59,118 nt of DNA from Paenibacillus chitinolyticus NBRC 15660. Lineage in GTDB: Bacteria; Bacillota; Bacilli; Paenibacillales; NBRC-103111. Shown here one piece after another: positions 1 to 12,792 of this stretch; position 1 is the first letter of the stretch; each line of letters opens with the position of its first letter. The position numbers and the translations under genes are program-made. The notes below the pieces were generated by a model. The model was not told the origin of the DNA. It did no database searches and worked only from the letters and a program-made list of their open reading frames with translations. The DNA lies in contig NZ_BBJT01000023.1 of NCBI RefSeq assembly GCF_000739915.1, positions 1 through 59,118 on the forward strand. The letters are read 5' to 3'.

Positions 1-90
1 AATGGAGTGGTTTGTTTGGGTTACATCATTGATATTTTTCCACTATCATGATGTTTTATTGCTAACTGACCTCACTTCGAGGGTTGTCAT

Positions 91-1830
91 TTAAAGCCAT
101 TTAATCAGCTCTTCCAGCTCCTCTACCAATCCTTTTGCAAGTTCAAAATCAGTATTTTTTAAAGCCAATTCTATTTTCATTTCAACTGATTTTTTCTTTT
201 GTTCCGTTTCTAAATAATCTTTATCAAAATGACTATCATAAATCATCTGTCTAAACTTTGGCAAAGTCATTTTTCTAATCGTCTTATCGTCAATAATTAA
301 AACATAATCCATACCATTTACAACAGAATAGAAATCATGGGAAACCATGAGAATCGCGCCTTTAAATTTTTCAATGGCTTTCTCCAGTGCTAGTTGTGTA
401 TAGGTATCTAAATGGCTTGTCGGTTCATCAAGAAGCAATACGTTTGCTTTACTGGCGGAAACCTTAGCCAATTGAAGTAAATTTTTTTCTCCACCAGATA
501 GAGATTCTATCTTTTGACTAAGGGTCTCTCCTTCAAAGCCATAGTTGAAAAGATACAATCCGATCTCATCGTAAGTTTTGAACCCTGCATCGATGAATTC
601 TTCTAGTATTGTATTAGCGTCCTTTAGCATTTCACCTTGAAGCTGAGACAAATAAGCTACTTTAACATCAGCATTGATTTCAATGGAAGCATGATTATTT
701 TTAAAGATGTCTCGAAGTAAGGTCGTTTTCCCGGTACCGTTTGCGCCGATAATAGCTACTTTATCCGTAGATTTTATCTCAAAGTTAACATTGTCTAGCA
801 GCAGCTCATCAAAGCCAACACTATAATGATGGACACTTACAACAATAGCGTCTTCCATTTCATTATCCACACCAAAACTGATATTCGGTTGTTTAATTTC
901 AACGAATGGCGCTTTAATTCGACGCGCTTCCAGTCTTTCTTGAAATCTAACTCTAGCTTTTAACGCTCTCCCTCTCGAAGCGTCTGAATTGTAAGTTGCG
1001 ATAACTCTAAGATTGTTGATGATCGTATCGTTTCTCTCCATCTCTTCTTGTTCAGCGACCGCGAGCTCTTGCAGCTCCATTTTTGTCTGAAGCAATGAGA
1101 AGTTATACTCGATATATCGCCCATCAAACTCCTGGATCTCCCTATTTTCAAGGTGTATAATTTTGTTGAAACAATGATTCAATAGATATCGGTTGTGCGT
1201 AACAACCAGTAGTATGCCTTTGTACGAATGAATAAGTTTTTTAAGCGCATTTAGGTTTTCGAAGTCTAGAAATACATCAGGCTCGTCCATAATCAATATG
1301 TCGGGACGATTAAGCATTTCCTTCATCACTTGAATAAGTTTGAATTCCCCGCCGCTCAGGTCGGCTACCTTACTATCTCTTCGCTTCATAAGGTTTGCTA
1401 CATTTAGCTGCTTATGAATGTTGCTTTCAAAATCATCCCCACCAATAGCATCCAATGCGTCTAAAGCGAATTGATACTTTTCCAGTAACGGCTCTATATC
1501 TGTTGAGGTCTCCATTTCCGTACAAATCGATTGAATTTCATTTTGAAGCTTTATAAATGGTTCTCCTATATATTCAAAAACGGTTGTTTCTTTCGTGTTG
1601 TCTAGTTCTGAGAACTGACTTACGTATCCAATTGTACAATCGGGGTCCATCTCTAATTTACCATCGAAAAGATATCTTTCCGGGTCCATCAGTATATCTA
1701 TCAATGTGCTTTTCCCACTGCCGCTTGTTCCGATAAAAGCGCAATGTTGTGCTTCTTCTAACGTAAATGAAATGTTGTTAAATAGTTCTTTTTGCGGAAA
1801 CGAGAAGGATAAGTTATCGACTTTTATCAT
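91..1830 (-). CDS. ABC-F family ATPase (ribosome-protection type)
   Basis: A soluble protein of 579 residues with two ABC ATPase domains and no membrane segments, the hallmark of ABC-F proteins, which bind the ribosomal E site. Domain 1 has a Walker A (GTSGSGKST, about residues 34-42), LSGGE near 158 and Walker B with DEPD near 182. A charged inter-domain linker follows (about 230-310). Domain 2 has GANGTGKTT near 360, LSGGE near 440 and DEPTSHLD near 464. The first Walker B motif has DEPDVFLD where DEPTNHLD is usual. The ATG at 1830 was chosen because GAAAGG lies just upstream; a GTG seven codons earlier has no such site. Several ABC-F subfamilies protect ribosomes from lincosamide, streptogramin or pleuromutilin drugs, but the sequence alone does not say whether this one confers resistance. 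Confidence 0.85.
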   Translation of the reverse strand: MIKVDNLSFSFPQKELFNNISFTLEEAQHCAFIGTSGSGKSTLIDILMDPERYLFDGKLEMDPDCTIGYVSQFSELDNTKETTVFEYIGEPFIKLQNEIQSICTEMETSTDIEPLLEKYQFALDALDAIGGDDFESNIHKQLNVANLMKRRDSKVADLSGGEFKLIQVMKEMLNRPDILIMDEPDVFLDFENLNALKKLIHSYKGILLVVTHNRYLLNHCFNKIIHLENREIQEFDGRYIEYNFSLLQTKMELQELAVAEQEEMERNDTIINNLRVIATYNSDASRGRALKARVRFQERLEARRIKAPFVEIKQPNISFGVDNEMEDAIVVSVHHYSVGFDELLLDNVNFEIKSTDKVAIIGANGTGKTTLLRDIFKNNHASIEINADVKVAYLSQLQGEMLKDANTILEEFIDAGFKTYDEIGLYLFNYGFEGETLSQKIESLSGGEKNLLQLAKVSASKANVLLLDEPTSHLDTYTQLALEKAIEKFKGAILMVSHDFYSVVNGMDYVLIIDDKTIRKMTLPKFRQMIYDSHFDKDYLETEQKKKSVEMKIELALKNTDFELAKGLVEELEELIKWL

Positions 1831-1881
1831 AGTATTACCTTTCTTTATCACTAAAATAGTGGCTATTAGATGTATTGCAAA

Positions 1882-2000
1882 CCATAGATTTTGAATTTAC
1901 CGCTGTTAGAGTAACACTGTTTACAACCAACTTCAATCCCATTGTATCCCTTGTGGTCCTTATCGGATTAGCTGTCATTGTGGCGGGTGGTCGTTTTTAA
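1882..2000 (+). pseudogene. Remnant of a membrane protein C-terminus
   Basis: An open frame without a start ends at the TAA at 1998-2000 and reads as a hydrophobic segment (NPIVSLVVLIGLAVIVAGG) followed by a short Arg-Phe tail. This resembles the last transmembrane helix of a transporter. No upstream part exists because the neighbouring ABC-F gene begins on the other strand at 1830. It is called a decayed fragment on composition alone, and chance hydrophobicity is possible. Confidence 0.3.
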
Positions 2001-2111
2001 GCCGACGTTAATTGGGTCTTAGATCAATGGTCTTTGGGCTGTATGCCATCTTTACCATTTATCGTTATAATGAAGGGAGGGATTTACGAGCGGCCAAAGC
2101 TCAAGAAAGGA

Positions 2112-3308
2112 ATGTCCGGCATTATGACGATAACCGAGTCAAATCGACTGAGCGAGCTGAGCATTGAAGAGTGTCAGGGCCTGATCGCAGGCTGCGCCGA
2201 GGGAGCGGCGAGCAGCCCGTTTCAAATAAACTACGGTAACGAAGTGCGCTCCAAAGTGCGTCTCTTTCTGTCCGAATTGACACCCGAGGAGGCCTGGCTG
2301 CTCGAGCTGAACATCGGGCTGTTTTTGCTTCGCAAGCAATCGACCGACCGCCACTCGGGCTACTTCGCCCAGGTGGCGGCATCCGAGACGATAGATACGA
2401 TTGAGGCTCACCTCAATAGCAGCTTGCCGCCGGAGATCGCGGTCAAGCATCAAGGGCGACTGCTGGAGACGGCCGTTTACATCCGCGAAACGGTAAAGGC
2501 GAATGCGTGGTTCCCTCCAGCCTATTTGGATATCTATGTGGAGCTGTGGTTGATCCTGGTATCGTCCGATGCGGACAGCCCTCGCCTCTTTAAGGAGGAG
2601 CTGTCCCATTTGGCCGATGGATTCGGCAAGGAAAATAAGCTCTTCCCGCTTGTCGCCCGCGCTTGGATTCACTTCTGGCTTCAAGAGGATCAAGCTGCTT
2701 GGCGGCTGCTCGAAGCAGCGGAGCGGCATCGGCTAAATCCCGGGCATGTGTTCCGCTTTCTGCGCGTGCTGGAGGAGGCTGGCGAATGGATACGGCTAGA
2801 GGCTTGGCTAAGCCATTGCGCCACCGAGCGGGTCGGTCGCAGCCCCGGCAGCCTGGATACATATGGACGCTACTGGGAAGCCGTCGTCGGACAATTGCCG
2901 GAGGCCGAGAGGAACATGTGGAGCGCGATTACGAGCCTGCTTCCCTACTCCAGCAGCCTGTACGAGGAGAGCCTGATGCGCTTCGGCCGTTGGCGTCAGT
3001 GGGTTGATTATCAGCTTAGCCTCGGCAGCGATCCGCTCGACTTCCGGGCGAAGGATCTGCAGCCCATCGAGAAGGAGGCCCCGGAGGCGCTGCTGCCGTT
3101 CTACCACCAAGGCACAGAGAAATACGTGTTGTTAAGAAACCGCCACGGCTACAAGCGAGCGGTGAAGCTGCTCAAACGGCTGGCCAAGCTGTACAAGAAG
3201 CTAAAGCGTGAGCAGCGGTGGGACGTGTACATAGAGACATTCGTGAGCCGGCATAGCCGGCTGCGGGCCCTCCAGGAAGAGCTGCGGAAAGGAAAGCTGA
3301 TTCCATGA
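2112..3308 (+). CDS. SWIM-type protein lacking its zinc finger, partner of the SNF2 helicase
   Basis: About 398 residues, GC-rich and mostly helical, with a very basic C-terminus (AVKLLKRLAKLYKKLKREQ near the end, then LRALQEELRKGKLIP). In Bacillota, SNF2 helicases of this class are often preceded by a SWIM zinc-finger protein that ends in the same kind of basic tail. Here the expected N-terminal SWIM motif (CxCx(n)CxH) is absent, so the gene looks truncated at its 5' end and restarted. The start is uncertain: the frame is open from a TTG at 2034, with ATGs at 2043, 2070, 2112 and 2124 and no ideal ribosome site. The stop overlaps the helicase start by four bases (ATGA), implying translational coupling. 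Base composition changes sharply from the AT-rich ABC-F gene to the left. Confidence 0.55.
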   Translation: MSGIMTITESNRLSELSIEECQGLIAGCAEGAASSPFQINYGNEVRSKVRLFLSELTPEEAWLLELNIGLFLLRKQSTDRHSGYFAQVAASETIDTIEAHLNSSLPPEIAVKHQGRLLETAVYIRETVKANAWFPPAYLDIYVELWLILVSSDADSPRLFKEELSHLADGFGKENKLFPLVARAWIHFWLQEDQAAWRLLEAAERHRLNPGHVFRFLRVLEEAGEWIRLEAWLSHCATERVGRSPGSLDTYGRYWEAVVGQLPEAERNMWSAITSLLPYSSSLYEESLMRFGRWRQWVDYQLSLGSDPLDFRAKDLQPIEKEAPEALLPFYHQGTEKYVLLRNRHGYKRAVKLLKRLAKLYKKLKREQRWDVYIETFVSRHSRLRALQEELRKGKLIP

Positions 3309-6298
3309 CGACGACGATCGATAATCTGGATACCATCGCGGTTCGAATGGTGTTGACGTCGCATGGCGACGCGTTGTTCTTCGCGGACCCGGATTCGCTG
3401 CGGGAGTGGACCGGGCTTCAACTGAAGCATCGCCTGTTCGCCTGGCACGAGCCGTCCTTCTATGGCACCGAGCTGGAGCTCGTCAAGGTCGGGGAGCTCG
3501 AAGCCATTGTGCTGCCCGCCGAAGAGGTCATCCCCTTCTTTGCATCTGGACCTCTACTGGCGCATATGGAGTGGAAGTGGGAAGACGATGCCGCGCGCTT
3601 GGCCGAATTGGCGCCATTGCTGGCCGAATGCCTGGAGAAGCGGCTGTACGCGCCCGATCTTGCGGCTTACCGCAGCGGCTCGCTGCGCTGGAGCTGGGAT
3701 GCGGCGGCGGTCGGTGCGACCTTCGGACAGGCGCGCCGCGACGAACTGGACCTGAAGAACAGCAGTTGGAGCGATGAGGCGCGCGACGGGCTGAAGGCGG
3801 CCTTCTCGGCGGCCGTCATGAGCCGCTTCTACGGAACGGAGCCGGACGAGGCGGATCTGCGCCGCGAATTCCCGGCCCTGTTCGCGCGCGAGAATGCGGC
3901 GGCCGCGACGGCGGGACTGGACGACGAGAGCTGGCTCGTGCAGATTGGCTGGAAAGCGGATGTCGCGCCGTTCCGCCCCTTGCTGCAACTATTGGAGCCA
4001 TGTGAGGGCGACGAGCACTCCCGCTGGCGGCTGCGGTTCGTGCTGCAGGACAAGAGCGATCCGGCTAAGCTCCGCAGAGTACGGCTCGGCGACGACGGCT
4101 CGGCGGTCGGCAAGTGGCCTGACGCATGGGCGGAGGCTATCCGCAGCCGCTCGGACGGTTGGCTGCAACGGCTGCGAGCCAGCCTTCCGCACGATCGGCT
4201 GTCGCGCGGCGAGGACGTGCTCGGCAAGCCGCTTGACGACGAGGCGGCCTGGCGGTTTCTGAACGAGGACAGCCGCCGGCTGCTCGAAGCCGGCTGGCAG
4301 GTGCTGCTGCCCGCATGGTGGGAAGCCGCCAGCCGCAAGAAACCGCGGCTGCGCGCGGCGGTGCAGTCGGAGGACGAGTCCAAAGAGCGTGGCGGCATCA
4401 AGTCTTTATTCGGGCTGGAAGCGATTCTGAGCTTCAACTGGCGCATCTCTATCGGCGGCGCCGACCTGAACGAGGAGGAGTTCGACGAGCTGCTCGCGCG
4501 AGGGGAGCGTCTCGTGAAGTTCCGGGACCGCTGGATCGTGCTCGACCCGGCGCTGATTGCCCAGATCCGCCGCATGATGGAAGGCATGGACAAGAGCCAG
4601 GGATTGAGCTTCCAGGATGTACTGCAATTGCATTTGCTCTCGCAGGCCGAGACGGACGCCGGCGCGGATGGCGGGGCCACGGATGCCGGCGCGGAGACAT
4701 TCGGGACCGATGCTGCTCACGTTGAGCTCGATGTCGAGCTCAACGCGCATTTGACCGGGCTATTCGCCAAGATTAATCAGCAGAGCGAATGGCCGCGGCT
4801 CGATCCGCCGGCCGGTCTGCGTGCCGAGCTGCGCAGCTACCAGCAGGACGGATTCACCTGGCTGGCTTTTCTCCGCCGCTTCGGGCTCGGGGCCTGTCTC
4901 GCGGACGACATGGGCCTCGGCAAGACGGTCCAGTTGATTGCCTACCTGCTCTACGCCAAGGAACAGGCGGACGAGGGGATGGGGCTCCCTTCGCTTATCG
5001 TCTGCCCCACGTCGGTGCTCGGCAACTGGCAGAAGGAGATCTCCCGCTTTGCCCCGTCGCTGCGAGTGGCCATGCATTACGGCTCCGGGCGTAAGAACGG
5101 CGACGCGTTCCGGAACGAGGCCCGCAGCGTTGACGTCATACTGACCTCCTTTGCTACCGCCTCGCTCGACCAGGAGACGCTCGCCGGATTCCAATGGGGC
5201 GCCGTCTGTTTGGACGAGGCCCAGAACATTAAGAATGCCGGGACCAGGCAGGCCGCGGCGGTCAAGAGCTTTCCCGCGCTCCATCGCATCGCGCTCACCG
5301 GGACGCCGATCGAGAACCGGTTGGCGGAGCTATGGTCCATCTATGATTTTATCGTGCCCACCTATCTCGGGGCCGCCAAGTCGTTCCAGGAACGGTTCGC
5401 CTCTCCGATCGAGCGCGAGCAGGACGGGCGTCGCACGGCTGAACTAAAGCGGCTAGTGAAACCGTTCATGCTGCGACGCAAGAAGAAGGATCCCGCCATC
5501 CAGCTCGACCTGCCGGACAAAAACGAGATGAAGACGTATGTTCCACTGACCTCCGAGCAGGCCGCCCTGTACGACAATTGCGTTAAGGAACTGCTAGAGA
5601 AGCTGAAGAAGCTCGACGGCATCCAGCGCAAAGGCGCTATTCTCGGGGCGCTGACGCGGCTCAAGCAGGCTTGCGACCATCCAGCTCTACTGGATGAGGA
5701 TATGGGAACGGAGCTGGAGGATGGCCCTCTACATACGGAGGCGATCGTCGCCCGCTCCTCCAAGCTGGAGAGGCTGCTGGCCATGGTCAAGGAGCTGCGC
5801 GAGGCGGACGAGCGCTGCCTCATCTTCACGCAATACATCGGCATGGGCAAGATGATACAGGATGTGCTGCAGCGCGAGCTGGACGAACCCGTGCTATACC
5901 TGAACGGCAGCACGCCGAAGGCGCAGCGGGACCGGATGGTCGAACGGTTCCAGTCCCGCGACCTTCCGCCGTCCGAGCAGCCGAACGTGTTCATCCTCTC
6001 CCTCAAGGCGGGAGGCGTCGGGCTTAACTTGACCGCGGCGAACCACGTCTTCCACTTCGACCGCTGGTGGAACCCGGCCGTCGAGAACCAGGCGACCGAC
6101 CGCGCCTACCGGATGGGCCAGACGCGCGACGTGCAGGTGCATAAATTCATCTCGCTCGGCACGCTCGAGGAGCGCATCGACGAGATGCTGGTGAACAAGC
6201 AGCAGCTAAGCGACAACGTCATCTCCAGCTCGGAGGGCTGGATTACCGAGCTGTCGACGGATGCGCTGCGGGAGTTGTTCTCGCTGCGGCGGGACTAG
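3305..6298 (+). CDS. SNF2-family DEAD/DEAH-box helicase
   Basis: A protein of 997 residues. The N-terminal half (about 1-470) matches the SNF2 helicase-associated region found in bacterial members. The ATPase core begins near residue 500 with the Q-like RSYQQDGFTWL. It continues with Walker A DDMGLGKT (about 534-541), DEAQ box (about 637), LTGTPIENR, FTQYIGMG, LSLKAGGVGLNLTAANHV and the arginine-finger block DRWWNP (about 918) with QATDRAYRMGQ. Length and motif order are complete and nothing is broken. It would be an ATP-driven DNA translocase; the cellular role of these bacterial proteins with a SWIM partner is not settled. It is coupled to the upstream gene by a four-base overlap. The gene is much richer in GC than both flanks, suggesting separate acquisition or survival of an older block between AT-rich insertions. 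Confidence 0.9.
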   Translation: MTTTIDNLDTIAVRMVLTSHGDALFFADPDSLREWTGLQLKHRLFAWHEPSFYGTELELVKVGELEAIVLPAEEVIPFFASGPLLAHMEWKWEDDAARLAELAPLLAECLEKRLYAPDLAAYRSGSLRWSWDAAAVGATFGQARRDELDLKNSSWSDEARDGLKAAFSAAVMSRFYGTEPDEADLRREFPALFARENAAAATAGLDDESWLVQIGWKADVAPFRPLLQLLEPCEGDEHSRWRLRFVLQDKSDPAKLRRVRLGDDGSAVGKWPDAWAEAIRSRSDGWLQRLRASLPHDRLSRGEDVLGKPLDDEAAWRFLNEDSRRLLEAGWQVLLPAWWEAASRKKPRLRAAVQSEDESKERGGIKSLFGLEAILSFNWRISIGGADLNEEEFDELLARGERLVKFRDRWIVLDPALIAQIRRMMEGMDKSQGLSFQDVLQLHLLSQAETDAGADGGATDAGAETFGTDAAHVELDVELNAHLTGLFAKINQQSEWPRLDPPAGLRAELRSYQQDGFTWLAFLRRFGLGACLADDMGLGKTVQLIAYLLYAKEQADEGMGLPSLIVCPTSVLGNWQKEISRFAPSLRVAMHYGSGRKNGDAFRNEARSVDVILTSFATASLDQETLAGFQWGAVCLDEAQNIKNAGTRQAAAVKSFPALHRIALTGTPIENRLAELWSIYDFIVPTYLGAAKSFQERFASPIEREQDGRRTAELKRLVKPFMLRRKKKDPAIQLDLPDKNEMKTYVPLTSEQAALYDNCVKELLEKLKKLDGIQRKGAILGALTRLKQACDHPALLDEDMGTELEDGPLHTEAIVARSSKLERLLAMVKELREADERCLIFTQYIGMGKMIQDVLQRELDEPVLYLNGSTPKAQRDRMVERFQSRDLPPSEQPNVFILSLKAGGVGLNLTAANHVFHFDRWWNPAVENQATDRAYRMGQTRDVQVHKFISLGTLEERIDEMLVNKQQLSDNVISSSEGWITELSTDALRELFSLRRD

Positions 6299-6456
6299 TC
6301 TCGCGATTAAGCGGGATTTGGGCAACCTAGCATGGGTTCCTTACTTTCCTCTCTGAGAAATTCTTTAATCATCTCAAAGTATCGAAAACTACATGATAAT
6401 TGCGACAGACGAAAACCTTGTTACGGATGAAACTTTTGAAATTGCCCTCCAAGCAA

Positions 6457-6488
6457 AAAGGATCTGGAAGCTTACTTTCAGATCCTTT
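6457..6488 (-). terminator. Rho-independent terminator
   Basis: AAAGGATCTG and CAGATCCTTT form a 10-bp stem. On the minus strand it is followed by a T-run. It lies just after the stop of the broken gene at 6501-6763. Confidence 0.7.
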
Positions 6489-6500
6489 GTCCAGGGGTAA

Positions 6501-6763
6501 CTAATTATTATTTCGTTTGTTAACTTCAATCGCAATGAACTCCGGCAAATAATTGGGAATACAGCCCTTTGATACCATTTCATCTTTATAAAGACCCGTA
6601 ACTCTAGGTAAACCTTTAGGAATGTTTTCCTTATTGAACCGGCAAATATATCCATATATCCATTTTGTATATTTCTTTCAGAGTCGGTACTCAGGTCACT
6701 AACCAACAATCCCAATTTTTTATCGTCACTTATGATAAGGTTCACCGTACTGACACCAAGCAC
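6501..6763 (-). pseudogene. Frameshifted remnant of an unrecognised gene
   Basis: Two minus-strand frames together read like one protein. The first gives GLLVSDLSTDSERN. The second gives a stretch ending in KGLPRVTGLYKDEMVSKG and then NYLPEFIAIEVNKRNNN, with a stop at 6501-6503. They join near 6655-6690, where a frameshift is needed, and the downstream frame has a TGA just before the joint. The 5' end runs into the rlmH-like att repeat at 6726-6743. A good terminator still follows the gene. The family is not recognised. It is probably former cassette cargo that has decayed. Confidence 0.45.
6714..6744. repeat. SCC-like att site A (rlmH-end direct repeat)
   Basis: TCACTTATGATAAGGTTC at 6726-6743 matches 17 of 18 bases of the rlmH terminus at 12244-12261. 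To its left, the AATTTTTTATCG-like sequence corresponds to the element-end inverted repeat of the other copies with a small change. This is the leftmost copy seen. Confidence 0.75.
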
Positions 6764-6809
6764 AAAATTTATTTTGATAATAAGATATACATTAGCATAT
6801 AAAACAAAG

Positions 6810-6835
6810 CCACTCCTTACAATGGAGTGGTTTTT
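6810..6835 (+). terminator. Terminator-like hairpin
   Basis: CCACTCC and GGAGTGG form a 7-bp stem with a 7-base loop, followed by TTTTT on the plus strand. The right arm with its flank (AATGGAGTGGTTT) is repeated at bases 1-13 of the window, so another copy of this hairpin probably straddles the left edge. Confidence 0.5.
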
Positions 6836-6855
6836 ATGTATGGTTTCCTTTCATT

Positions 6856-7041
6856 TCATCTGTTGCTTCCCTTAATTGATTTGCACCCTTCGTCAGTCCA
6901 AGGAAACTCCCTAATAGCAACAACATCAAAATTAAACTCATGTAATAGTTGGATAGATTCAAAAGTAAAATTATAGCCTATAGCAAAGTTCTTAACTTCA
7001 TCATTAACACTTATGCCCATCTTACTCAAGGCTTTTCTCAA
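6856..7041 (-). pseudogene. Gene fragment, C-terminal part of an unrecognised protein
   Basis: About 61 codons read smoothly on the minus strand, including SVNDEVKNFAIGYNFTFES and NFDVVAIREFPWTDEGCKS. There is no ribosome site, and the only possible start is TTG; an in-frame stop lies shortly upstream. It lies between att copies A and B, in the degraded part of the cassette array. It is best read as the 3' end of a lost gene. Confidence 0.35.
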
Positions 7042-7473
7042 GCCATTACTTTGGTCTTATCCAATAAAACATACCACCCTTGGTAACAAAGCTAAGTTTG
7101 ATGATATTCATTAACAATCACCATATACTACCTACTTATGATAAGGTTCAGCTTAACGGGGCTATCGGCGAAAAAAGGGCAACGGCGCATAATTGCCAAC
7201 CTTTTACCCAGCCTACGGTTTTGATCAAATCTGCTTGATAAGCACGGAAGGCCACCGAAGTAAATCGGCGGCCTTTGCAAACTTGATTCAACTAACGTAC
7301 CCGTTAGCGTAACAAAATACTGCCGATTGCGGAGTAACAATGATACCTATGGTTCCCAACGTTCTCGACTCAAGTAAAAATATATTAGCGTGTCTCTTAA
7401 TTCGGGTTCCTTCTCGATGGAAACATGGGTTGGAGCGATAGTTGAACATGAACGTTATTTCAGAAGCGTTCTA
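7042..7473. other. Gene-free stretch holding att copy B and a hairpin
   Basis: No convincing coding sequence is visible. The stretch contains att copy B (7132-7174) and, directly after its inverted repeat, an imperfect stem (about 7172-7204). A stronger stem-loop lies at 7248-7275, where AAGGCC.CCGA pairs with TCGG.GGCCTT. None has a T-run long enough for a clear terminator call. Confidence 0.6.
7132..7174. repeat. SCC-like att site B with inverted repeat
   Basis: From 7134 to 7174 this copy matches copy C (10252-10292) at 39 of 41 positions. It includes the core ACTTATGATAAGGTTC and the arm GCTTAACGGGGCTATCGGCG followed by A's. The CGGCGAAAA arm is the left end of the cassette lying between B and C. 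The other side of the core lacks the AATTTTTCGCCG arm, so the neighbouring element has lost its end. Confidence 0.85.
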
Positions 7474-7854
7474 CTAGTCATATTGTGAGTACAGCGCAAG
7501 CATATCATCAGCACAGCCAGCTATAATAGTATTTGCTTGTTCAGCATGTTTTACTGCCTCAGCGTAAAGTTGTAGATTAAAACTAACAGAAGCCATTATT
7601 AAATGCCATTCAGCGTCCGTATTTCCCTTATCAGAAACAGTTTGCAACAGCCCGTATGCTTGCTCAAATGGATTGGTCTGTTCAGAATAATCTTGCAGAT
7701 AATTCAGTGCCCTTGCATATGCTAAAATCATTTCATATGACCACTGTTCCTGAGGGTACTGCTGCAGGATTGATTTTATTTCATTATAATTATCTACAAG
7801 CTTCATTATATCCATCTCTGTCTCAAGACCGTTTATATACTGCATGTCAATCAT
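7474..7854 (-). CDS. Small helical protein, possibly TPR-like
   Basis: 126 residues, predicted mostly helical, with A/Y/L spacing resembling two or three tetratricopeptide-type helix pairs (for example EMILAYARALNYLQDYSEQ and AEWHLIMASVSFNLQLYAEA). The ATG at 7854 follows GAGGTGA with a spacing of six. A second ATG three codons in is possible. It is a lone gene inside cassette II with no operon partner. It is short for a TPR protein and could be a C-terminally shortened version. It has no signal peptide or membrane segment. The function is not recognised. Confidence 0.6.
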   Translation of the reverse strand: MIDMQYINGLETEMDIMKLVDNYNEIKSILQQYPQEQWSYEMILAYARALNYLQDYSEQTNPFEQAYGLLQTVSDKGNTDAEWHLIMASVSFNLQLYAEAVKHAEQANTIIAGCADDMLALYSQYD

Positions 7855-8304
7855 TCAGCTTCACCTCTGGCTAGAGTCATACTAACATACTAAACTGAAT
7901 TCCGTTCTATTTTCCGGATTTAAGAGAAACGCGAAGAAGTACAAGCAACATGCCGCTCCCATGCTATTTCATATGCCAATTTTACCAATTATTGATACAT
8001 GATGTAAAAGAGGATTTCGTCCTATTTTTTGCTATCCTGACCGTTATTTAAGCGAAAGGCTGCCGATTGCCGGCATCCAATGTTTGAGCAAACGTCTCCA
8101 TTAGTTGAGCATTCGCCACACATACTGAAGAAAATTTTGACGTGAATCAATTTCATAAATCATTTTCTCAGTGATCCGCTCAACCGAATATAAACATCGT
8201 TTTGAAAATTGAAGTTAAGCAGCTACTTTTTGAGCCTTTGTACTTCTAAATGACTTAAACCTTTTTTCCTCTAAAGATAAATAAAGCTTAAGTCAACTTA
8301 AACA
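7855..8304. other. Intergenic stretch with a possible transposase tail
   Basis: On the minus strand, 8215-8289 encodes LSLEEKRFKSFRSTKAQKV, then Ala-Ala-stop. This resembles the basic C-terminal end of a transposase, but a stop lies just upstream and no family can be named. The remainder is AT-rich and holds no other feature I can support. Confidence 0.3.
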
Positions 8305-8688
8305 TCAACCATTTTTTAAATAATTCTGATCTTCGTTCAACTTTTCTAACCATTTTTCAAGTGTCTGTTTTATCTCAAACCTATCCCTTGAACTAATTTC
8401 CATTAGCGTATCCCATTTCCCATTAGTGATTGCTAATCCATACTCGCCGCTCGCTCTTGAATCTGGATGCCACCCTAAAAGAATATGTATCCTTCTATTT
8501 TCATCTTTAGGTACATTCCAACTCCCTTTTTCAAGTTCCATTTTACTTATTTGAAGTAGGTCTTGTGTAAAGAATGTCCAATTTGTTAAGAAATCATCTT
8601 CATTGGGGTCTGATATCGGTTCAACATCATAAAACCTATTATAATAAATAGCGAAACCTTGTGGTATTCTTAGTTCCATTAAATTCAT
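8305..8688 (-). CDS. Small acidic orphan protein, unrecognised
   Basis: 127 residues, acidic, with no membrane segment. Visible blocks are MELRIPQGFAIYYNRFYDVE, then a DPNEDDF stretch, WTFFTQDLLQ, LLGWHPDSRASGEYGLAI and a helical C-terminus. A compact alpha/beta orphan gene of this size in a cassette resembles immunity proteins of polymorphic toxin systems, but no family motif proves that and no toxin gene is adjacent. The ATG at 8688 has only a weak upstream GGA; another ATG lies three codons in. The gene stands alone within cassette II. Confidence 0.65.
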   Translation of the reverse strand: MNLMELRIPQGFAIYYNRFYDVEPISDPNEDDFLTNWTFFTQDLLQISKMELEKGSWNVPKDENRRIHILLGWHPDSRASGEYGLAITNGKWDTLMEISSRDRFEIKQTLEKWLEKLNEDQNYLKNG

Positions 8689-8739
8689 GTTATCATTCCA
8701 ATCTAATAAAATCCGTGTTTTATTTACTTTTGTTATCTT

Positions 8740-8905
8740 TGGACCTCTGTCAAGATAGCAGACACAAAATTTAATGATTTAACGTATTAAAGTAGTACTG
8801 GCATTCAAAATCAGATGGCGTGCTGTATCCGATTGATGAATGAATGCGTTCATGGTTGTAATGTCGAATACTATACATCTGGAGTTCTTCCTTTCTCTCT
8901 CTAGT
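8740..8905 (-). mobile_element. IS3-family transposase remnant
   Basis: The minus-strand frame ending at 8771-8773 reads RHYNHERIHSSIGYSTPSDF, which is the conserved C-terminal signature of IS3-family (rve) transposases, preceded by REKEELQMYSI-like residues. Everything upstream of about 8905 is missing. Sequence downstream of the stop to about 8740 may be the terminal inverted repeat. The remnant covers only the last 40 to 45 codons of a protein that is normally several hundred residues long. Confidence 0.8.
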
Positions 8906-9186
8906 GTGTGGTAGTGGCACTAAACACTTCGAGATTTGGGGAGGTACTCCTTTTTTTATGCCTTAAAATTTCAAGCCCAGTAAGGCTTTCGATTTATGAA
9001 ATTGATTCACTTACTAAAATAAATCGCTCTTTACTTGGTGAAGCCTATGCACAGCAAGTAGCAAGGGAGGCAATGGAAGATCACTCGTGACGAAAAGGAG
9101 AACGCCGTGACGGACTTAAGGTTTTATGCAACGCTGAAGCATGTATTTTCTAAAATATATGTCCTAATACTATCAGTAACGATAAC

Positions 9187-9216
9187 AAAAGACACCTGTG
9201 CTTCCGGGTGCCTTTT
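9187..9216 (-). terminator. Rho-independent terminator
   Basis: On the minus strand AAAAGGCACC pairs with GGTGTCTTTT (one G-U pair), ending in T's. It lies seven bases after the stop of the broken gene at 9223-9419. Confidence 0.7.
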
Positions 9217-9222
9217 ATCTGT

Positions 9223-9419
9223 TTAAAATAATTTCCCGATTTGAAATACATCTTTTCCTGTCGCTTCGACTGTCTGAGCCTCAATTCTTCTGTAAATTTT
9301 GTCTCCCACAAAACAAGGCTCATCCCCTGATTCAATTCTTCTTATAAATACAGCCTTTTCTTTAGAAGAATTTGCCCATTTGGAAATGATCTCAGATGCT
9401 TATTAGCAGTGCTATTCAT
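9223..9419 (-). pseudogene. Small frameshifted gene, unrecognised
   Basis: Beginning at the ATG complementary to 9417-9419 the frame reads MNSTANK and then goes out of register. The adjoining frame reads ASEIISKWANSSKEKAVFI, then RRIESGDEPCFVGDKIYRRI and on to a stop at 9223-9225, followed by a good terminator. One indel near 9395-9405 would restore a protein of about 65 residues. No family is recognised. It lies between the IS3 remnant and an intact orphan gene in cassette II. Confidence 0.45.
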
Positions 9420-9433
9420 GGAGTCTTTTTCTG

Positions 9434-9952
9434 TTACAAATTTTCCTGTTCTGATTTTGCTAGTCGCCATTCTCGAACAAAAATATCTGAACCTGTCATA
9501 AAAACATTATAAAATTGGTCTAAAAATTCTTCCGTCTCTTGAATAAATGGTTGTATAAATTCATAATCATTGACTTTATCATAATTAATTTTTATTGTAT
9601 CTTTCTTCTTAATTGTTGATTCATCAAAGCTATTATACATTTGTGTCTTAAAATGTATAATTTTTTGCCCCGCAACTTCCTCAAGAAAGACAAATCCACC
9701 AATTGCAAAAGGTCTTCCACTTTCATGACAAGGATAACATTCGACCTCCGCTTCAACTCTCCATTGAGTGTCTTGTCCCCAAATATGTGTTTCAAGCAAA
9801 CATACAATATTATTCATCACATCAGTGTAATTTCTGTCAGAAATAGCTTTTTCTATATCTCTGCAAATTGCTGGCATTTTTTTACGTAAAAGTTCATTCA
9901 ACGAATTATATAAAATACTCTTTCTTACTTCTATTTTACTGTCTTGGTTCAT
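9434..9952 (-). CDS. Orphan protein of 172 residues, unrecognised
   Basis: The ATG at 9952 follows AGGGGTGAT at good spacing. The protein has a basic helical N-terminus (about 1-45), a segment with VECYPCHESGRPFAIGGFVF (two cysteines in CYPC near 75), then a beta-rich region and a helical tail. There is no signal peptide or membrane helix. It lies alone in cassette II, 15 bases from the broken gene at 9223-9419 and in the same direction, so the two may have been one operon. The family is not recognised. Confidence 0.65.
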   Translation of the reverse strand: MNQDSKIEVRKSILYNSLNELLRKKMPAICRDIEKAISDRNYTDVMNNIVCLLETHIWGQDTQWRVEAEVECYPCHESGRPFAIGGFVFLEEVAGQKIIHFKTQMYNSFDESTIKKKDTIKINYDKVNDYEFIQPFIQETEEFLDQFYNVFMTGSDIFVREWRLAKSEQENL

Positions 9953-10050
9953 TGTAATCTATCACCCCTAATTCTTCATTATAAATCATCGTATTTGAAG
10001 AATCTTTCATTTTTCCAAGCTTTTTTCTCCTGAATTATGGCAACCTTGAC

Positions 10051-10068
10051 GAATGTCATTTGACATTC
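10051..10068. repeat. Perfect inverted repeat, operator-like
   Basis: GAATGTCA-TT-TGACATTC is an 8-bp perfect inverted repeat with a 2-base centre, about 100 bases upstream of the gene starting at 9952. It could be a repressor-binding site for that gene; no regulator is encoded nearby. Confidence 0.4.
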
Positions 10069-10237
10069 AGAATTTATTTAAAAATGTTGTGTTGAAGGCT
10101 CTGCCTTAAAGCTGTTTTGTCACAGACGACTACTGATTATCAGAATCAGCAAACAAAGGCGCAAGTTTAGATTAATCTTAACATCACTACATGTGTATAC
10201 CGTTTACAGTGTCCACGCCATAATGGGGGCCACACTA

Positions 10238-10294
10238 AATTTTTCGCCGTCACTTATGATACGGTTCAGCTTAACGGGGCTAACGGCGAAAATT
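10238..10294. repeat. SCC-like att site C between two cassettes
   Basis: Bases 10238-10267 are identical to 12232-12261 (30 of 30), including the last six codons of rlmH. The core is flanked by opposed arms: AATTTTTCGCCGT (10238-10250) and ACGGCGAAAATT (10283-10294). This is what is expected where the left end of one cassette meets the right end of the next. Confidence 0.9.
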
Positions 10295-10326
10295 ACGAAA
10301 GGAGCAGCCGCGGCATGCTCCTTCGT
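10295..10326. other. Stem-loop next to cassette end
   Basis: ACGAA(A)GGAGC pairs with GCTCCTTCGT with one bulged A. It lies directly inside the left inverted repeat of cassette I, where copy B also has a stem. There is no T-run. Confidence 0.4.
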
Positions 10327-10408
10327 ACAGATTGAATCTATTATTTTTCGATAATTTGCCAGTTCAGTTTGGCAGATGTATCTGCTAATAATTGGAGGAG
10401 CCTGCGTT

Positions 10409-11110
10409 TTACCCCAACCATTCTTTAAATTCATGTACTCTCCATTCATTTTCTTTAATTAGTCTTTCATCCTCCAAGACAACTTCATGTGCGCGTCTGA
10501 TCATTTCCTGCCCTTCCAACTGAACACCTTCATATAAGTCGGTTAATACGCCATCACATAATAAAGCGAGCGAAGCCGCTGAATACCATCCTATTCTGAA
10601 TTCAAAACTATCCCGGGCACTAATTTTAAAAATAACTTCAGTGTCTGCCTCACTTAGCTTTTTCTCAATTGGGCTTAATTGTTTTTGTCCGCTGAACAAC
10701 TTTGTAAAAAGGGATTGCCTCTTAATCGATTCTTCAATACGATTAACGAACAATTCATAACCCGTTAGCAATTCGATATTATTCAAACTCCTGTTTGGAC
10801 AATCATAGGTAACTATCTTAAAAGGAAGGAATCCTGAATGATTATTGAATGAAAAATTCGGATATATATCTACATCCATATTAAATTTCCTTATTTCAGC
10901 TAACCATGCTGGTATAATTTTGTCATTTAACCCTTTTAGTTGAACAGATAGTTCGAAACCCATATATTTCCCCTTTCTTGGAAGAATAGCATTGCCAACG
11001 AATTTTCTGCCCTTTAACGGAACGAGGTCACAGATCATTACCGTAGTGCCCCATACAAAATAATCGTGGAGGACGCTGATCCAGTTCTCGTTGCTTTTAC
11101 TTACGTACAT
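10409..11110 (-). CDS. Cassette I orphan protein of 233 residues, unrecognised
   Basis: A soluble protein with a beta-rich N-terminal half (VMICDLVPLKGRKFVGNAIL, then KYMGFELSVQLKGLNDKI) and a helical C-terminal half. The middle contains FLPFKIVTYDCPNRSLNN and a QSLFTKLFSG helix; the end is HEFKEWLG. The start at 11110 has a weak ribosome site, and the next in-frame ATG would remove conserved-looking sequence. It reads away from rlmH and ends about 115 bases from the cassette end. It may be an immunity-type or housekeeping orphan; no motif allows a functional call. Confidence 0.65.
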   Translation of the reverse strand: MYVSKSNENWISVLHDYFVWGTTVMICDLVPLKGRKFVGNAILPRKGKYMGFELSVQLKGLNDKIIPAWLAEIRKFNMDVDIYPNFSFNNHSGFLPFKIVTYDCPNRSLNNIELLTGYELFVNRIEESIKRQSLFTKLFSGQKQLSPIEKKLSEADTEVIFKISARDSFEFRIGWYSAASLALLCDGVLTDLYEGVQLEGQEMIRRAHEVVLEDERLIKENEWRVHEFKEWLG

Positions 11111-11392
11111 GACAACTTTTTGAGCTTCATAGATGGCCTAATCGCTTTCTTATGTATGTTTGTTATTTCCATTATAGTGATCGTTTGTCCTGAGTCTACC
11201 TACTTTTTACCTGATTTTTGGAAATGACCTTTGCAAGGGTAGTTTGGTCACGAAGTAAAGCCAGATGAATGTTCAACACGTCCTGCTTTCCAATCCTGAT
11301 TGATAACAAACTTGTTACGATTCAATGGAAGAACAATAATAGCGTGAATCCATTATAATAATGTTATGCCAGAACGAAGGGATATGATAATA
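11111..11392. promoter_or_regulatory. Divergent promoter region of cassette I
   Basis: The stretch separates two divergently transcribed genes and is AT-rich. On the plus strand a TATAAT-like box occurs at about 11353-11358, some 35 bases before the ATG at 11393; no strong -35 is seen. No coding sequence is visible. Confidence 0.35.
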
Positions 11393-12076
11393 ATGAAGAA
11401 ATACAAGATCGACAGTTTTACCCGCGCCAGTGAACCGATCCGGACTCCCATAACGAAATTCGGAGGACAGCCAGTGTGGCTAACAGAACCGCAATGGCCG
11501 CTTAGCAGCGGGTGGGACAAGCGCCCGATGATGTTTATCGGTCAGATAGAGCTGAACCCGCAACTTTTCCCCACTTCAAAAGTTCCTAAGCCCCTGATGG
11601 CCTATCTCTTTGTTACACATGCGCAAAATATGGAGGAAGGCTTCTTTGATCCTGATATTATCGACCCGGATGGTGGTGAAAATGCGATCATTATCCAGCC
11701 CGGAGGCGAGCCTCTGATCGATACAGCCCCATTGGCTAACGGACCAACGCTGTGGGATGACAATGGTGAATCTTATGAAGGCATCCCTCAGCTGCAAGAA
11801 GCCCAAGACCCCGAATTTCTCGATTCCGACTCCTACATCTTGCTCAGTAAGGATGAGCAGAAAGTCTATAGCGATGAAGTTGACGGCGATAAAATCGGGG
11901 GTGTGCCCTATTTTTTCCAAGGCGATGGCTGGCCGGATGATAGTAACTGGCGGTTGTTGCTGCAATTGCATGCGAATTTCAAGCCTTTCTGCTTGCTGGT
12001 GGGAGCCTCGCCAACGATTTTTGCTTTTGTGAATGAGGATCTGACGACCGGAAAGTTAGTTATTCAGGATTGTTAG
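11393..12076 (+). CDS. DUF1963 (YwqG-like) family protein
   Basis: About 227 residues. The N-terminal KFGGQPVWLTEPQWP followed by PMMFIGQIEL is the DUF1963 opening pattern (gly-gly-x-pro, trp-pro, then an f-l/i-x-q-i-d/e-l strand). Later blocks include LLSKDEQKVYSDEVDGDKIG and GGVPYFFQGDGWP, also typical of the family's second half. The start at 11393 (MKKYKID) is preferred because CGAAGGGA lies about ten bases upstream; a nearer ATG at 11384 is too close to it. The biochemical role of the family is unknown; members often occur as orphan genes in variable regions. It is the only plus-strand gene in cassette I. Confidence 0.65.
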   Translation: MKKYKIDSFTRASEPIRTPITKFGGQPVWLTEPQWPLSSGWDKRPMMFIGQIELNPQLFPTSKVPKPLMAYLFVTHAQNMEEGFFDPDIIDPDGGENAIIIQPGGEPLIDTAPLANGPTLWDDNGESYEGIPQLQEAQDPEFLDSDSYILLSKDEQKVYSDEVDGDKIGGVPYFFQGDGWPDDSNWRLLLQLHANFKPFCLLVGASPTIFAFVNEDLTTGKLVIQDC

Positions 12077-12247
12077 TGAGGAGCACTGCGATGTCATCGT
12101 AGACCTTTGGGAAGAAGCCATAGAGTTTGCCTTTCCAGATTCAAATGTAACCTGGATCAGTGTTGGAACTTGGTGACCATGCTGAATCTCCGCAACCATT
12201 TCTATAGGCTCTTCACCATCCTCTAAGACCCAATTTTTCGCCGTCAC
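12060..12247 (-). pseudogene. Decayed small gene abutting rlmH
   Basis: On the minus strand the sequence reads from inside the att repeat as NWVLEDGEEPIEMVAEIQHG, then HQVPTLIQVTFESGK. It continues in a second frame as GKLYGFFPKVYDDIAVLL to a stop at 12060-12062. A one- or two-base indel near 12145 separates the parts. It lies at the rlmH end of cassette I and overlaps the end of the DUF1963 gene. It is probably the 3' part of a former cassette gene. Confidence 0.35.
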
Positions 12248-12261
12248 TTATGATACGGTTC
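12232..12261. repeat. SCC-like att site D at the rlmH terminus
   Basis: It contains GAACCGTATCATAAGTGA read on the minus strand, encoding Glu-Pro-Tyr-His-Lys-stop of rlmH. It is followed outward by CGGCGAAAAATT, the right-end inverted repeat of cassette I. The same 30 bases recur at 10238-10267. SCC elements of staphylococci use the equivalent last codons of rlmH as attB. Confidence 0.88.
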
Positions 12262-12723
12262 CCCGCGGTTTATCTTAAACGCCCGATAAACCTGCTCCAC
12301 CAGCACCAGCCGCATCAACTGGTGCGGCAAGGTCATGCGCCCGAACGACAGCTTCGCGTCGGCGCGGCGCAGCACCTCGCTCGACAATCCGAGCGAGCCG
12401 CCGATGACGAAGGCCACCTGGCTGCGCCCATAGGTGGCCAACTTATCGAGCGAGCCCGCCAGCTGCTCGCTCGTCCACATCTCGCCGTCGATGGCCAGCG
12501 CCACGACGTAAGCGTCCGGGGCGAGCTTGGCCAGCAGCCGCTCGCCCTCTTTGGCCCGCACCTGCTGCTCCTCCGCAGGGCTCATGCTTTCCGGTGCCTT
12601 CTCGTCCGGCACCTCCACAAGCTGCACCTTGGCATACGGGCCAAGGCGCTTAACGTACTCGTCAATCCCGTTGACGAGGTATTTCTCTTTCAGTTTGCCG
12701 ACAGAGGCAATCGTGATGTGCAT
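12244..12723 (-). CDS. rlmH: 23S rRNA (pseudouridine1915-N3)-methyltransferase
   Basis: 159 residues, the usual size. RlmH methylates N3 of pseudouridine 1915 in helix 69 of 23S rRNA, using S-adenosylmethionine in the trefoil-knot (SPOUT) fold. Visible marks are [16 protein letters not shown], the [16 protein letters not shown] segment, the SAM-binding [10 protein letters not shown] loop and the conserved C-terminus [20 protein letters not shown] ending in GEPYHK. The ATG at 12723 is chosen because AAGGAGCG lies at proper spacing and the family starts here; ten extra upstream codons are open but unlikely. Its 3' end is the integration site for the cassette array. The C-terminal GEPYHK is intact, so insertion has not damaged the enzyme. 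Confidence 0.96.
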
Positions 12724-12792
12724 AGCGAAGTCGCTCCTTTTTTTACCGATCATTGGCTTAATCTTCCCTTACTGTACCCCAAATCCCACCTA

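Follow-up and report, generated by a model that had tools for sequence, protein, structure and literature searches.

What kind of DNA lies behind rlmH in Paenibacillus chitinolyticus NBRC 15660, where the last codons of this gene recur several times on one contig? We analyzed a stretch of 59,118 nucleotides from this genome (the window, contig C10) together with adjoining sequence and related genomes.

Copies of the rlmH end join tandem cassettes in the window

A sequence-only reading of this DNA had placed repeats of the rlmH end at 10250-10267, 7132-7149 and 6726-6743, and our search confirmed them. The 18-mer of the rlmH tail (GAACCGTATCATAAGTGA) matches the window four times, always on the minus strand, against an expectation by chance of 0.01 (<=3 mismatches), and four matches were reached in 0 of 100 shuffles. 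The core of the repeat, GAACCNTAYCATAAGT, encodes the final RlmH residues. The features of the region, from rlmH leftwards, are as follows.

12244..12753, minus strand: rlmH (PF02590, E=2.4e-58), whose 3' end anchors the array; present in 5/5 genus genomes searched
12244..12261, minus: core site 1, the last rlmH codons, 0 mismatches; junction of rlmH and cassette 1
12232..12243, minus: proximal arm of cassette 1 (CGGCGAAAAATT)
10268..12243, minus: cassette 1, 1,976 bp between two cores
11366..12076, plus: cassette 1 gene, DUF1963 (PF09234, E=3.5e-11)
10409..11110, minus: cassette 1 ORF, 233 aa, no Pfam match at E<=0.1
10263..10294, minus: distal end of cassette 1 (AATTTTCGCCGTTAGCCCCGTTAAGCTGAACC)
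10250..10267, minus: core site 2, 0 mismatches; joins cassettes 1 and 2
7150..10249, minus: cassette 2, 3,100 bp between two cores
9434..9952, minus: cassette 2 ORF, 172 aa; contig C30 has an equally long counterpart within a short unit
8782..8878 (approximate), minus: candidate C-terminal remnant of an IS3-type transposase, read from the translation
8305..8688, minus: cassette 2 ORF, 127 aa, no Pfam match at E<=0.1
7474..7854, minus: cassette 2 ORF, 126 aa, with weak TPR-like matches under curated cut-offs
7145..7176, minus: distal end of cassette 2 (TTTTTTCGCCGATAGCCCCGTTAAGCTGAACC)
7132..7149, minus: core site 3, 3 mismatches to the 18-mer, with the 16-base core GAACCTTATCATAAGT intact
6744..7131, minus: short segment between cores 3 and 4, with no ORF of 80 aa fully within it
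6726..6743, minus: core site 4, 1 mismatch to the 18-mer
1..6725, strand not assigned: next array segment, continuing by synteny into contig C26 as far as the core at C26:385302
91-1851, in this segment: ABC-F ATPase-like gene, recognized by eye
2034-3308, in this segment: ORF
3305-6298, in this segment: SNF2 helicase

No recombinase was detected in the window cassettes. The arm CGGCGAAAAAT is found at 10239-10249 and 12233-12243 on the minus strand and the arm CGGCGAAAATT at 10284-10294 on the plus strand, and a third arm type (TTTTGTGCTT) forms the left arm beside core 4, in the short segment. Counted on their own the arms stand at chance level (3 matches vs 2.88 expected), and they carry weight only through their position beside the core. 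Tandem cassettes with opposed arms, joined at the last codons of rlmH in a non-staphylococcal host, had also been proposed from the sequence, and the window does contain this arrangement. SCC and ECC elements are recognized by insertion at these codons and by TATCATAA-type cores that recur as direct repeats flanked by inverted arms, and both features are present here (the staphylococcal repeat is as given in an excerpt of PMC10581047).

The array continues into the neighbouring contig and carries mixed cargo

The array had initially been bounded at 6714, with a length of 5.5 kb; this limit does not hold. Synteny with genome G002 shows that C10 abuts C26 exactly, and the array passes the left edge of the window into C26 and extends over ~98 kb. 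Across this distance we found 17 cores, all on one strand; at <=1 mismatch there were 17 minus-strand and 0 plus-strand matches in 132 kb, and simulation gave 2 matches in 30 sequences (~0.07 by chance). G002 itself has 19 minus-strand cores and 1 plus-strand core at <=2 mismatches.

The cargo was surveyed by scanning 94 of the 97 ORFs of the own array (52 in A2 and 42 in A3, with three window ORFs omitted). The Pfam families viewed were the best 25 of 74 and the best 25 of 35, so that the cargo list is a sample, and among the matches listed the cargo is mixed. PADLOC families were scattered at one ORF each (17/17 viewed for A2, the best 25 of 30 for A3); a defence island was considered and rejected on this scatter among the matches listed.

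Sequence shared between genomes ends at the core

We compared five genomes of the genus, each species being represented by a single genome in the collection used. The other four have an rlmH that is 90-99% identical to our copy up to the core, and beyond the core and arm the DNA after rlmH differs among all five. The comparison with empty sites that the sequence-only reading had suggested found no empty site in these four genomes; the borders are placed at the core by one-sided sharing. An earlier identity profile covered 20 pairs chosen by eye and was redone with a fixed ungapped rule on all passing pairs. By this rule, among 205 sites, the right side alone is common to 8 pairs, the left side alone to 79 (73 of which compare rlmH with rlmH) and both sides to 0, and identity drops to background at the site. 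BLAST detected 4 real pairs with both sides shared.

Individual cases show differing partners on one side of a core, both within and between species. Part of cassette 2 (9391-10267, 877 bp) is repeated on C30 at 99.4%, and the match stops at the outer edge of the core. The proximal 503 bp of cassette 1 are found at 88% in P. contaminans (L037), where a close homologue of the DUF1963 gene adjoins the core and what precedes the core on the left is the end of a cassette, not rlmH. Core site 3 has its right side in common with G004 (99%, 303 bp) and not its left, and the right side of core site 4 also occurs in G002 with a different left neighbour. Across genera, a 500-bp match at 98.8% between Cohnella nanjingensis and P. 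albiflavus is confined to one side. Cassettes appear to have been traded among related species.

When the own array was compared with that of G002 (blocks >=150 bp and >=85%), orientation was kept in 32/32 blocks, and blocks from C26:358631 onward were largely reordered. Block ends fell within 30 bp of an own core in 7 of 64 cases vs 0.74 expected; the remaining 57 lie away from own cores, which indicates that other rearrangement has also shaped the region.

In the own genome the motif has 14 matches, 9 on C10/C26 and 5 on C30, C31 and C32. Repeats at many loci unrelated to rlmH had been named in advance as evidence against the cassette reading, and these 5 copies go part of the way there; since exchange takes place at the core, we read them as further insertion sites. 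Such copies, together with the palindromic shape of the motif, would also suit a non-mobile repeat of the REP or terminator type, dispersed through the genome and lying after rlmH by chance. This explanation is highly improbable, however: sites share one flank and very seldom both, up to 500 bp of flank travels with the site, and the core itself encodes the end of RlmH.

Ccr-like recombinases lie near rlmH or a core in relatives

At E<=1e-100, a strict threshold that misses partial or divergent Ccr-like genes, no Ccr-like gene was found in the own genome or in G002. Searches for a ccr recombinase in the own array returned att or antisense read-through matches and nothing beyond these. The only PF07508 match of the own genome (C31:532607) is distant, at 27% identity, and has no core in the 20-kb stretch examined with it. 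Among 104 genomes of the family, 21 carry Ccr-like serine recombinases at the same threshold, and rlmH or a core was present in 26 of the 29 stretches around these genes (13/14 stretches from genomes chosen by the motif and 13/15 chosen by recombinase profile alone). At the level of whole genomes there was no association, the motif occurring in 17 of the 21 genomes with a detected Ccr-like gene and in 64 of the 83 others.

In an NCBIfam scan of 10 site-linked recombinases, CcrB was the best model for 9 and the second for 1, with scores of 250 to 431 bits vs the 900-bit equivalog cut-off of CcrB; 224 bits are reached even by a large serine recombinase whose 3.8-kb locus contains no core. A sequence search against the PDB returned 7 different chains of serine recombinases or invertases, and none of them was named Ccr. 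P. elgii has one of the Ccr-like proteins (L142:8923-10548). Some relatives carry fuller elements: behind rlmH, locus L139 of Paenibacillus sp. OK003 holds two Ccr-like recombinases (L139:9185-12414), RadC and a DUF927 helicase with a Cch HTH domain, and in L148, L183, L184 and L186 the replication helicase beside ccr is of the D5_N/DUF5906 type. Other relatives retain remnants, namely a 3' recombinase remnant after rlmH in G003 and a partial gene in G004.

The array could be a graveyard of decayed SCC-like elements that have lost their recombinase genes and are now rearranged solely through homologous recombination at repeated cores and through insertion sequences. The remnants in G003 and G004, the lack of a Ccr-like gene in the own genome and in G002 at the threshold used, the candidate IS3-like remnant in cassette 2 and the many block ends off own cores are consistent with decay. 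Against it stand the 877-bp copy, nearly identical at two loci and ending at the core, and the one-sided match between P. albiflavus and Cohnella nanjingensis; moreover, homologous recombination would have little to work with in a core of 16 bp and arms of ~10-30 bp. We consider this explanation unlikely, though far from negligible.

A probable SCC-like composite island with cassettes presumably moved in trans

Taken from sequence comparison, the array is very probably an SCC/ECC-like composite integrative island at the rlmH 3' end, made of cassettes that lack a recombinase and are presumably moved in trans. A unit would run from a core and proximal arm (CGGCGAAAAAT in the commonest type) as far as its distal end (ATTTTTCGCCGATAGACCCGTTAAGCTGAACC for the same type), which abuts the following core, and it would enter at the core through conservative site-specific recombination; such insertion would rebuild the rlmH tail each time and leave all units facing the same way. 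The recombination is most probably catalysed by Ccr-like large serine recombinases from fuller SCC-like elements at rlmH in relatives, the best example being the element with a recombinase pair, RadC and a Cch-type helicase. Enzymes of this kind may act on the sites described here and release cassettes as circles, and the window cassettes would presumably be mobilized in trans whenever the cell also carries such an element.

Integrons likewise form long one-way arrays of exchangeable cassettes without a recombinase of their own, and a true integron, with single-strand attC hairpins rearranged by a tyrosine recombinase of the IntI type, would account for the single orientation and for certain units being short, with one or two genes. 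The site also forms an imperfect palindrome; in the one case analyzed, 199 of 200 shuffles folded less well (z -3.66). The two systems differ in recombinase class, however: the integrase model TIGR02249 was above its cut-off in 0 of 104 family genomes (weaker matches occur in 104/104 and also in 14/14 controls), the genes near the sites are serine recombinases, and the anchor is rlmH, a known SCC target. A true integron has next to no likelihood and was rejected, with no integrase above cut-off among the 104 genomes.

Distribution of the motif

A search for the core in family genomes had been suggested as a check, and it recovered the motif in 81 of 104, with the reversed control in 2. In a named collection, 71 of 73 stretches are named as Paenibacillaceae, one as Bacillus sp. 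FJAT-27264 and one as a Lachnospiraceae MAG (L093); the last is probably a chance match, as the consensus is absent left of the matched pattern. This distribution, with recombinases at no more than 431 bits vs 900, fits the original proposal of a parallel system as opposed to a recent import from Staphylococcus. Phage and plasmid carriage were both rejected: the exact motif had 0 matches in viral_contigs, and positions 6714-12261 matched 2 of 72,556 plasmid records, each over ~2% of the length of this segment, one of the two being a 2.7-Mb replicon.

Relation to known elements

SCC is known chiefly as a vehicle of methicillin resistance, in one or few units. The array resembles SCC in its target at the rlmH 3' end, a closely similar direct repeat, inverted arms and tandem insertion, and pseudo-SCC elements without ccr exist in staphylococci, but here 17 sites occupy one 98-kb array in a genome without a detected Ccr-like gene, and the recombinases of relatives score under Ccr cut-offs. 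The direct repeat in S. brunensis is GAAGC(A/G)TATCATAA(G/A)TGA (excerpt of PMC10581047), whereas the core here is GAACC(N)TA(T/C)CATAAGTGA, with different arm sequences. The same excerpt describes ccrDE islands outside rlmH, in which Ccr enzymes are able to use other sites, and cites a report that Ccr enzymes can move an SCC without co-moving; these islands target rimL, whereas the copies on C30, C31 and C32 retain the rlmH-type core.

According to an excerpt of PMC6222049, ECC elements are also non-staphylococcal, lie at rlmH and combine ~50-bp att sites containing TATCATAA with variable cargo; they differ in having ccrAB, whereas the window units lack a recombinase and form a long array, and that study gives fewer than 5 att matches per genome. 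SCC-like rlmH elements outside staphylococci are already published, including SCC-like PolA-SSB elements at rlmH in Bacillota with one tandem case in Paenibacillus pinistramenti (excerpt of PMC10061031). These share the target, the host group and more than one rlmH-end repeat with our array, but they possess a helicase and recombinase, and long recombinase-less arrays or interspecies exchange are not described in that excerpt. Our literature search found no account of a long one-way array or of cassette exchange between species.

More tentatively, Paenibacillaceae may have their own equivalent of the integron, based on serine recombinases. Small cassettes without recombinase genes would form a pool spanning the family, stacked in a single direction in long arrays after rlmH and passed among species and genera, and a passing SCC-like element would bring in the recombinase only occasionally. 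If this is true, SCC chemistry maintains a large common cassette pool in Paenibacillus and relatives, many of its members without recombinase genes, and integron-like gene exchange is possible with serine recombinases; it would also bear on the origin of SCC-type elements and on how cargo joins them. The window provides natural substrates for a direct test.

The core repeats form a one-way array anchored at rlmH

The gene at the anchor end of the array is rlmH, and three extra copies of its final 18 bases, all in a single orientation, were found in the window at 10250, 7132 and 6726 (0.01 matches in the shuffled window at equal tolerance). These copies bear out the sequence-only reading, which had described the end codons of rlmH as direct repeats and was correct in kind in proposing an array at the rlmH terminus resembling the staphylococcal cassette chromosome (SCC). 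The arms that it had described are present at fixed places beside the core, but their number alone is not unusual.

The window is the beginning of contig C10, and the sequences of C26 and C10 are contiguous, with zero bases between them, in G002, a genome of another species of the genus (C26:388403 at 3018537 and C10:1 at 3018538). With the two contigs joined, 17 cores (at most 1 mismatch) were found across the 97.7 kb from C26:302922 to the end of rlmH, 17 on the minus strand and 0 on the plus strand; first-order Markov simulation of 30 sequences of equal length produced 2 core matches in total. When up to 2 mismatches were allowed, the counts were 22 minus versus 0 plus in this genome and 19 versus 1 in G002, and the weaker 2-mismatch cores, e.g. 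that at C26:374631 within an ORF, may be chance matches. Core-to-core spacing spans 55 bp to 22 kb, so not all intervals correspond to one unit, and cores are sparse in the distal part of the array. Within the G002 array, an rlmH 3' fragment adjoins a core (G002:C1:2974899-2975015; 62% identity to the P. chitinolyticus protein).

The consensus of 77 sites matching the exact pattern in named genomes, a set that leaves aside 2 further sites located at stretch ends, is ATTTTTCGCCGATAGACCCGT-TAAGCTGAACC-N-TAYCATAAGT; the half to its right varies and is often GACGGCGAAAAAT. Across this array and the relatives, one core is combined with no fewer than three arm types (CGGCGAAA, CGGCAAGTTT and AAGCACAAAG). 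At 3 of the 17 sites of the array no type pattern matched on either side. The names on the 73 motif stretches are Paenibacillaceae in 71 cases, with one Bacillus sp. FJAT-27264 (by label) and one Lachnospiraceae MAG.

Cassettes appear to be exchanged at the core

Five genomes, each from a different species of the genus, have an rlmH that matches the P. chitinolyticus gene at 90-99% identity as far as the core; the DNA past the core and arm is different in each, and no empty rlmH site was found. A recombinase 3' remnant lies immediately behind rlmH in G003, and the G004 segment holds a partial gene for a Ccr-like recombinase (Ccr, the SCC-type large serine recombinase, LSR) with 68% identity to that of P. 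elgii.

Comparison of the array with G002 (blocks ≥150 bp long and ≥85% identical) showed that orientation is kept in 32/32 blocks and that block order is largely reshuffled from C26:358631 on, more distant blocks being mostly collinear. Of the 64 block ends, 7 are 30 bp or less from a P. chitinolyticus core (0.74 expected) and 57 are not near one; 5 lie near a G002 core (0.85 expected; 300 random draws gave up to 5).

We also compared, without gaps and under one fixed rule, all 205 sites flanked by 300 bp to the left and to the right. The right side alone was common to 8 site pairs, the left side alone to 79 (73 of them rlmH against rlmH) and both sides to 0, and identity stepped inside the site from ~0.85 (right-shared) or ~0.75 (left-shared, non-rlmH) to a background of 0.25. 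Gapped BLAST of 500-bp flanks gave 78 pairs sharing the right side, 220 sharing the left and 9 sharing both, the last comprising 5 overlapping windows of one locus, 3 pairs among stretches L041, L084 and L087, and the pair L147-L149. Cassette 1 (10268..12243) with the DUF1963 gene has an 88% counterpart in P. contaminans, where the left neighbour is different. Cassette exchange at the core appears to have crossed species and genus boundaries.

The first part of cassette 2 (7150..10249) is duplicated on contig C30 of the same genome, and the match stops at the core:

L014:14693-16087 (C30), copy of the first 877 bp of cassette 2, including a 172-aa ORF, at 99.4% identity, in a unit bounded by two cores (spacing 1.4 kb)

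The farther core of this unit differs from the search pattern at 2 positions, and the unit, which does not lie at rlmH, comes close to holding a single gene. The array may be a graveyard or may still be alive; the near-identical C30 copy and cross-genus sharing at 98.8% point to fairly recent movement. A remnant at 8782-8878, in cassette 2, resembles the end of an IS3-type transposase.

Recombinase genes are linked to rlmH or the core in relatives

The motif was found in 81 of 104 genomes of the family and a recombinase was detected in 21, by a Ccr-like profile of 8 proteins at E<=1e-100; the P. chitinolyticus genome gave zero profile matches at this threshold. No core site occurs in the 20 kb fetched around its sole PF07508 match:

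L032:9214-10617 (C31), sole PF07508 match

In P. flagellatus, a serine recombinase gene extends to and across a core. Used as a query against 49 motif-holding genomes, this recombinase had matches in 36 (E<=1e-3); some genomes gave a group of close homologues, others distant serine recombinases. Recombinase ORFs at two loci cross a core, their C-terminus being encoded by DNA beyond it:

L138:7918-9567, recombinase ORF
L137:4797-6995, recombinase ORF

The L137 ORF continues antisense into rlmH.

Of 29 stretches around Ccr-like genes (two from one genome), 16 hold rlmH and 26 hold rlmH or a core (13/14 from genomes picked for the motif, 13/15 by profile alone); L151, L193 and L194 have neither within the fetched stretch. 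Some of the genes are fragmentary (e.g. L146, L147 and L150). The recombinase is oriented towards rlmH in 15 of the 16 rlmH-holding stretches, the exception being L143. When 10 site-linked proteins were scanned, the best NCBIfam model was CcrB for 9 and CcrC for 1; the resemblance to Ccr is graded, because their CcrB scores are 250 to 431 bits (cut-off 900) and three LSRs without core linkage still score 224 (L121), 129 (L032) and 101 bits (L128).

In Paenibacillus sp. OK003, two adjoining recombinases, RadC and a DUF927 helicase with a Cch HTH domain lie less than 8 kb behind rlmH, and this locus is an SCC-like element. D5_N/DUF5906 helicases were found in four further stretches scanned. The genes next after the Ccr-like gene are alike by eye at three loci, and possibly encode a recombinase accessory factor:

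L142:10739-11488 (P. elgii)
L140:15526-16164
G004 C18, 14016-14768, reverse strand of L166

The two of these that were scanned (L142 and L140) had no Pfam match. Eight of the 30 clustered loci (the 29 Ccr-type stretches and G004) share a small protein, whose L145 copy had no Pfam match when scanned:

L140:5586-5990
L144:5707-6111
L145:11885-12190
five more loci

Relation to known elements

SCC-like elements at rlmH are described, in extracts of the respective papers, for Enterococcus (PMC6222049) and several Bacillota (PMC10061031), the latter presenting P. pinistramenti as a composite case, in which islands lie in tandem and the rlmH repeat occurs more than once. Extracts of PMC10581047 report or cite Ccr islands at sites other than rlmH, as well as SCC movement by recombinases that do not themselves move along. 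Searches of mainly open-access literature on rlmH and ccr in Paenibacillus or Bacillales, on composite and pseudo-SCC elements and on integron-like systems turned up no title or abstract on such arrays. Two aspects seem new: the scale, with a one-way array of 98 kb in which no recombinase was detected, and the apparent exchange of cassettes across species and genera.

Cargo of the array

We scanned 94 of the 97 listed ORFs of the array in two sets, each with at least 25 Pfam families. The families, among the matches listed, include two-component systems, MFS transporters, AraC regulators, periplasmic binding domains and oxidoreductases, together with several of unknown function. A few ORFs matched defence models, and single scans gave SUKH, DUF4085, DUF4261 and DUF5986.
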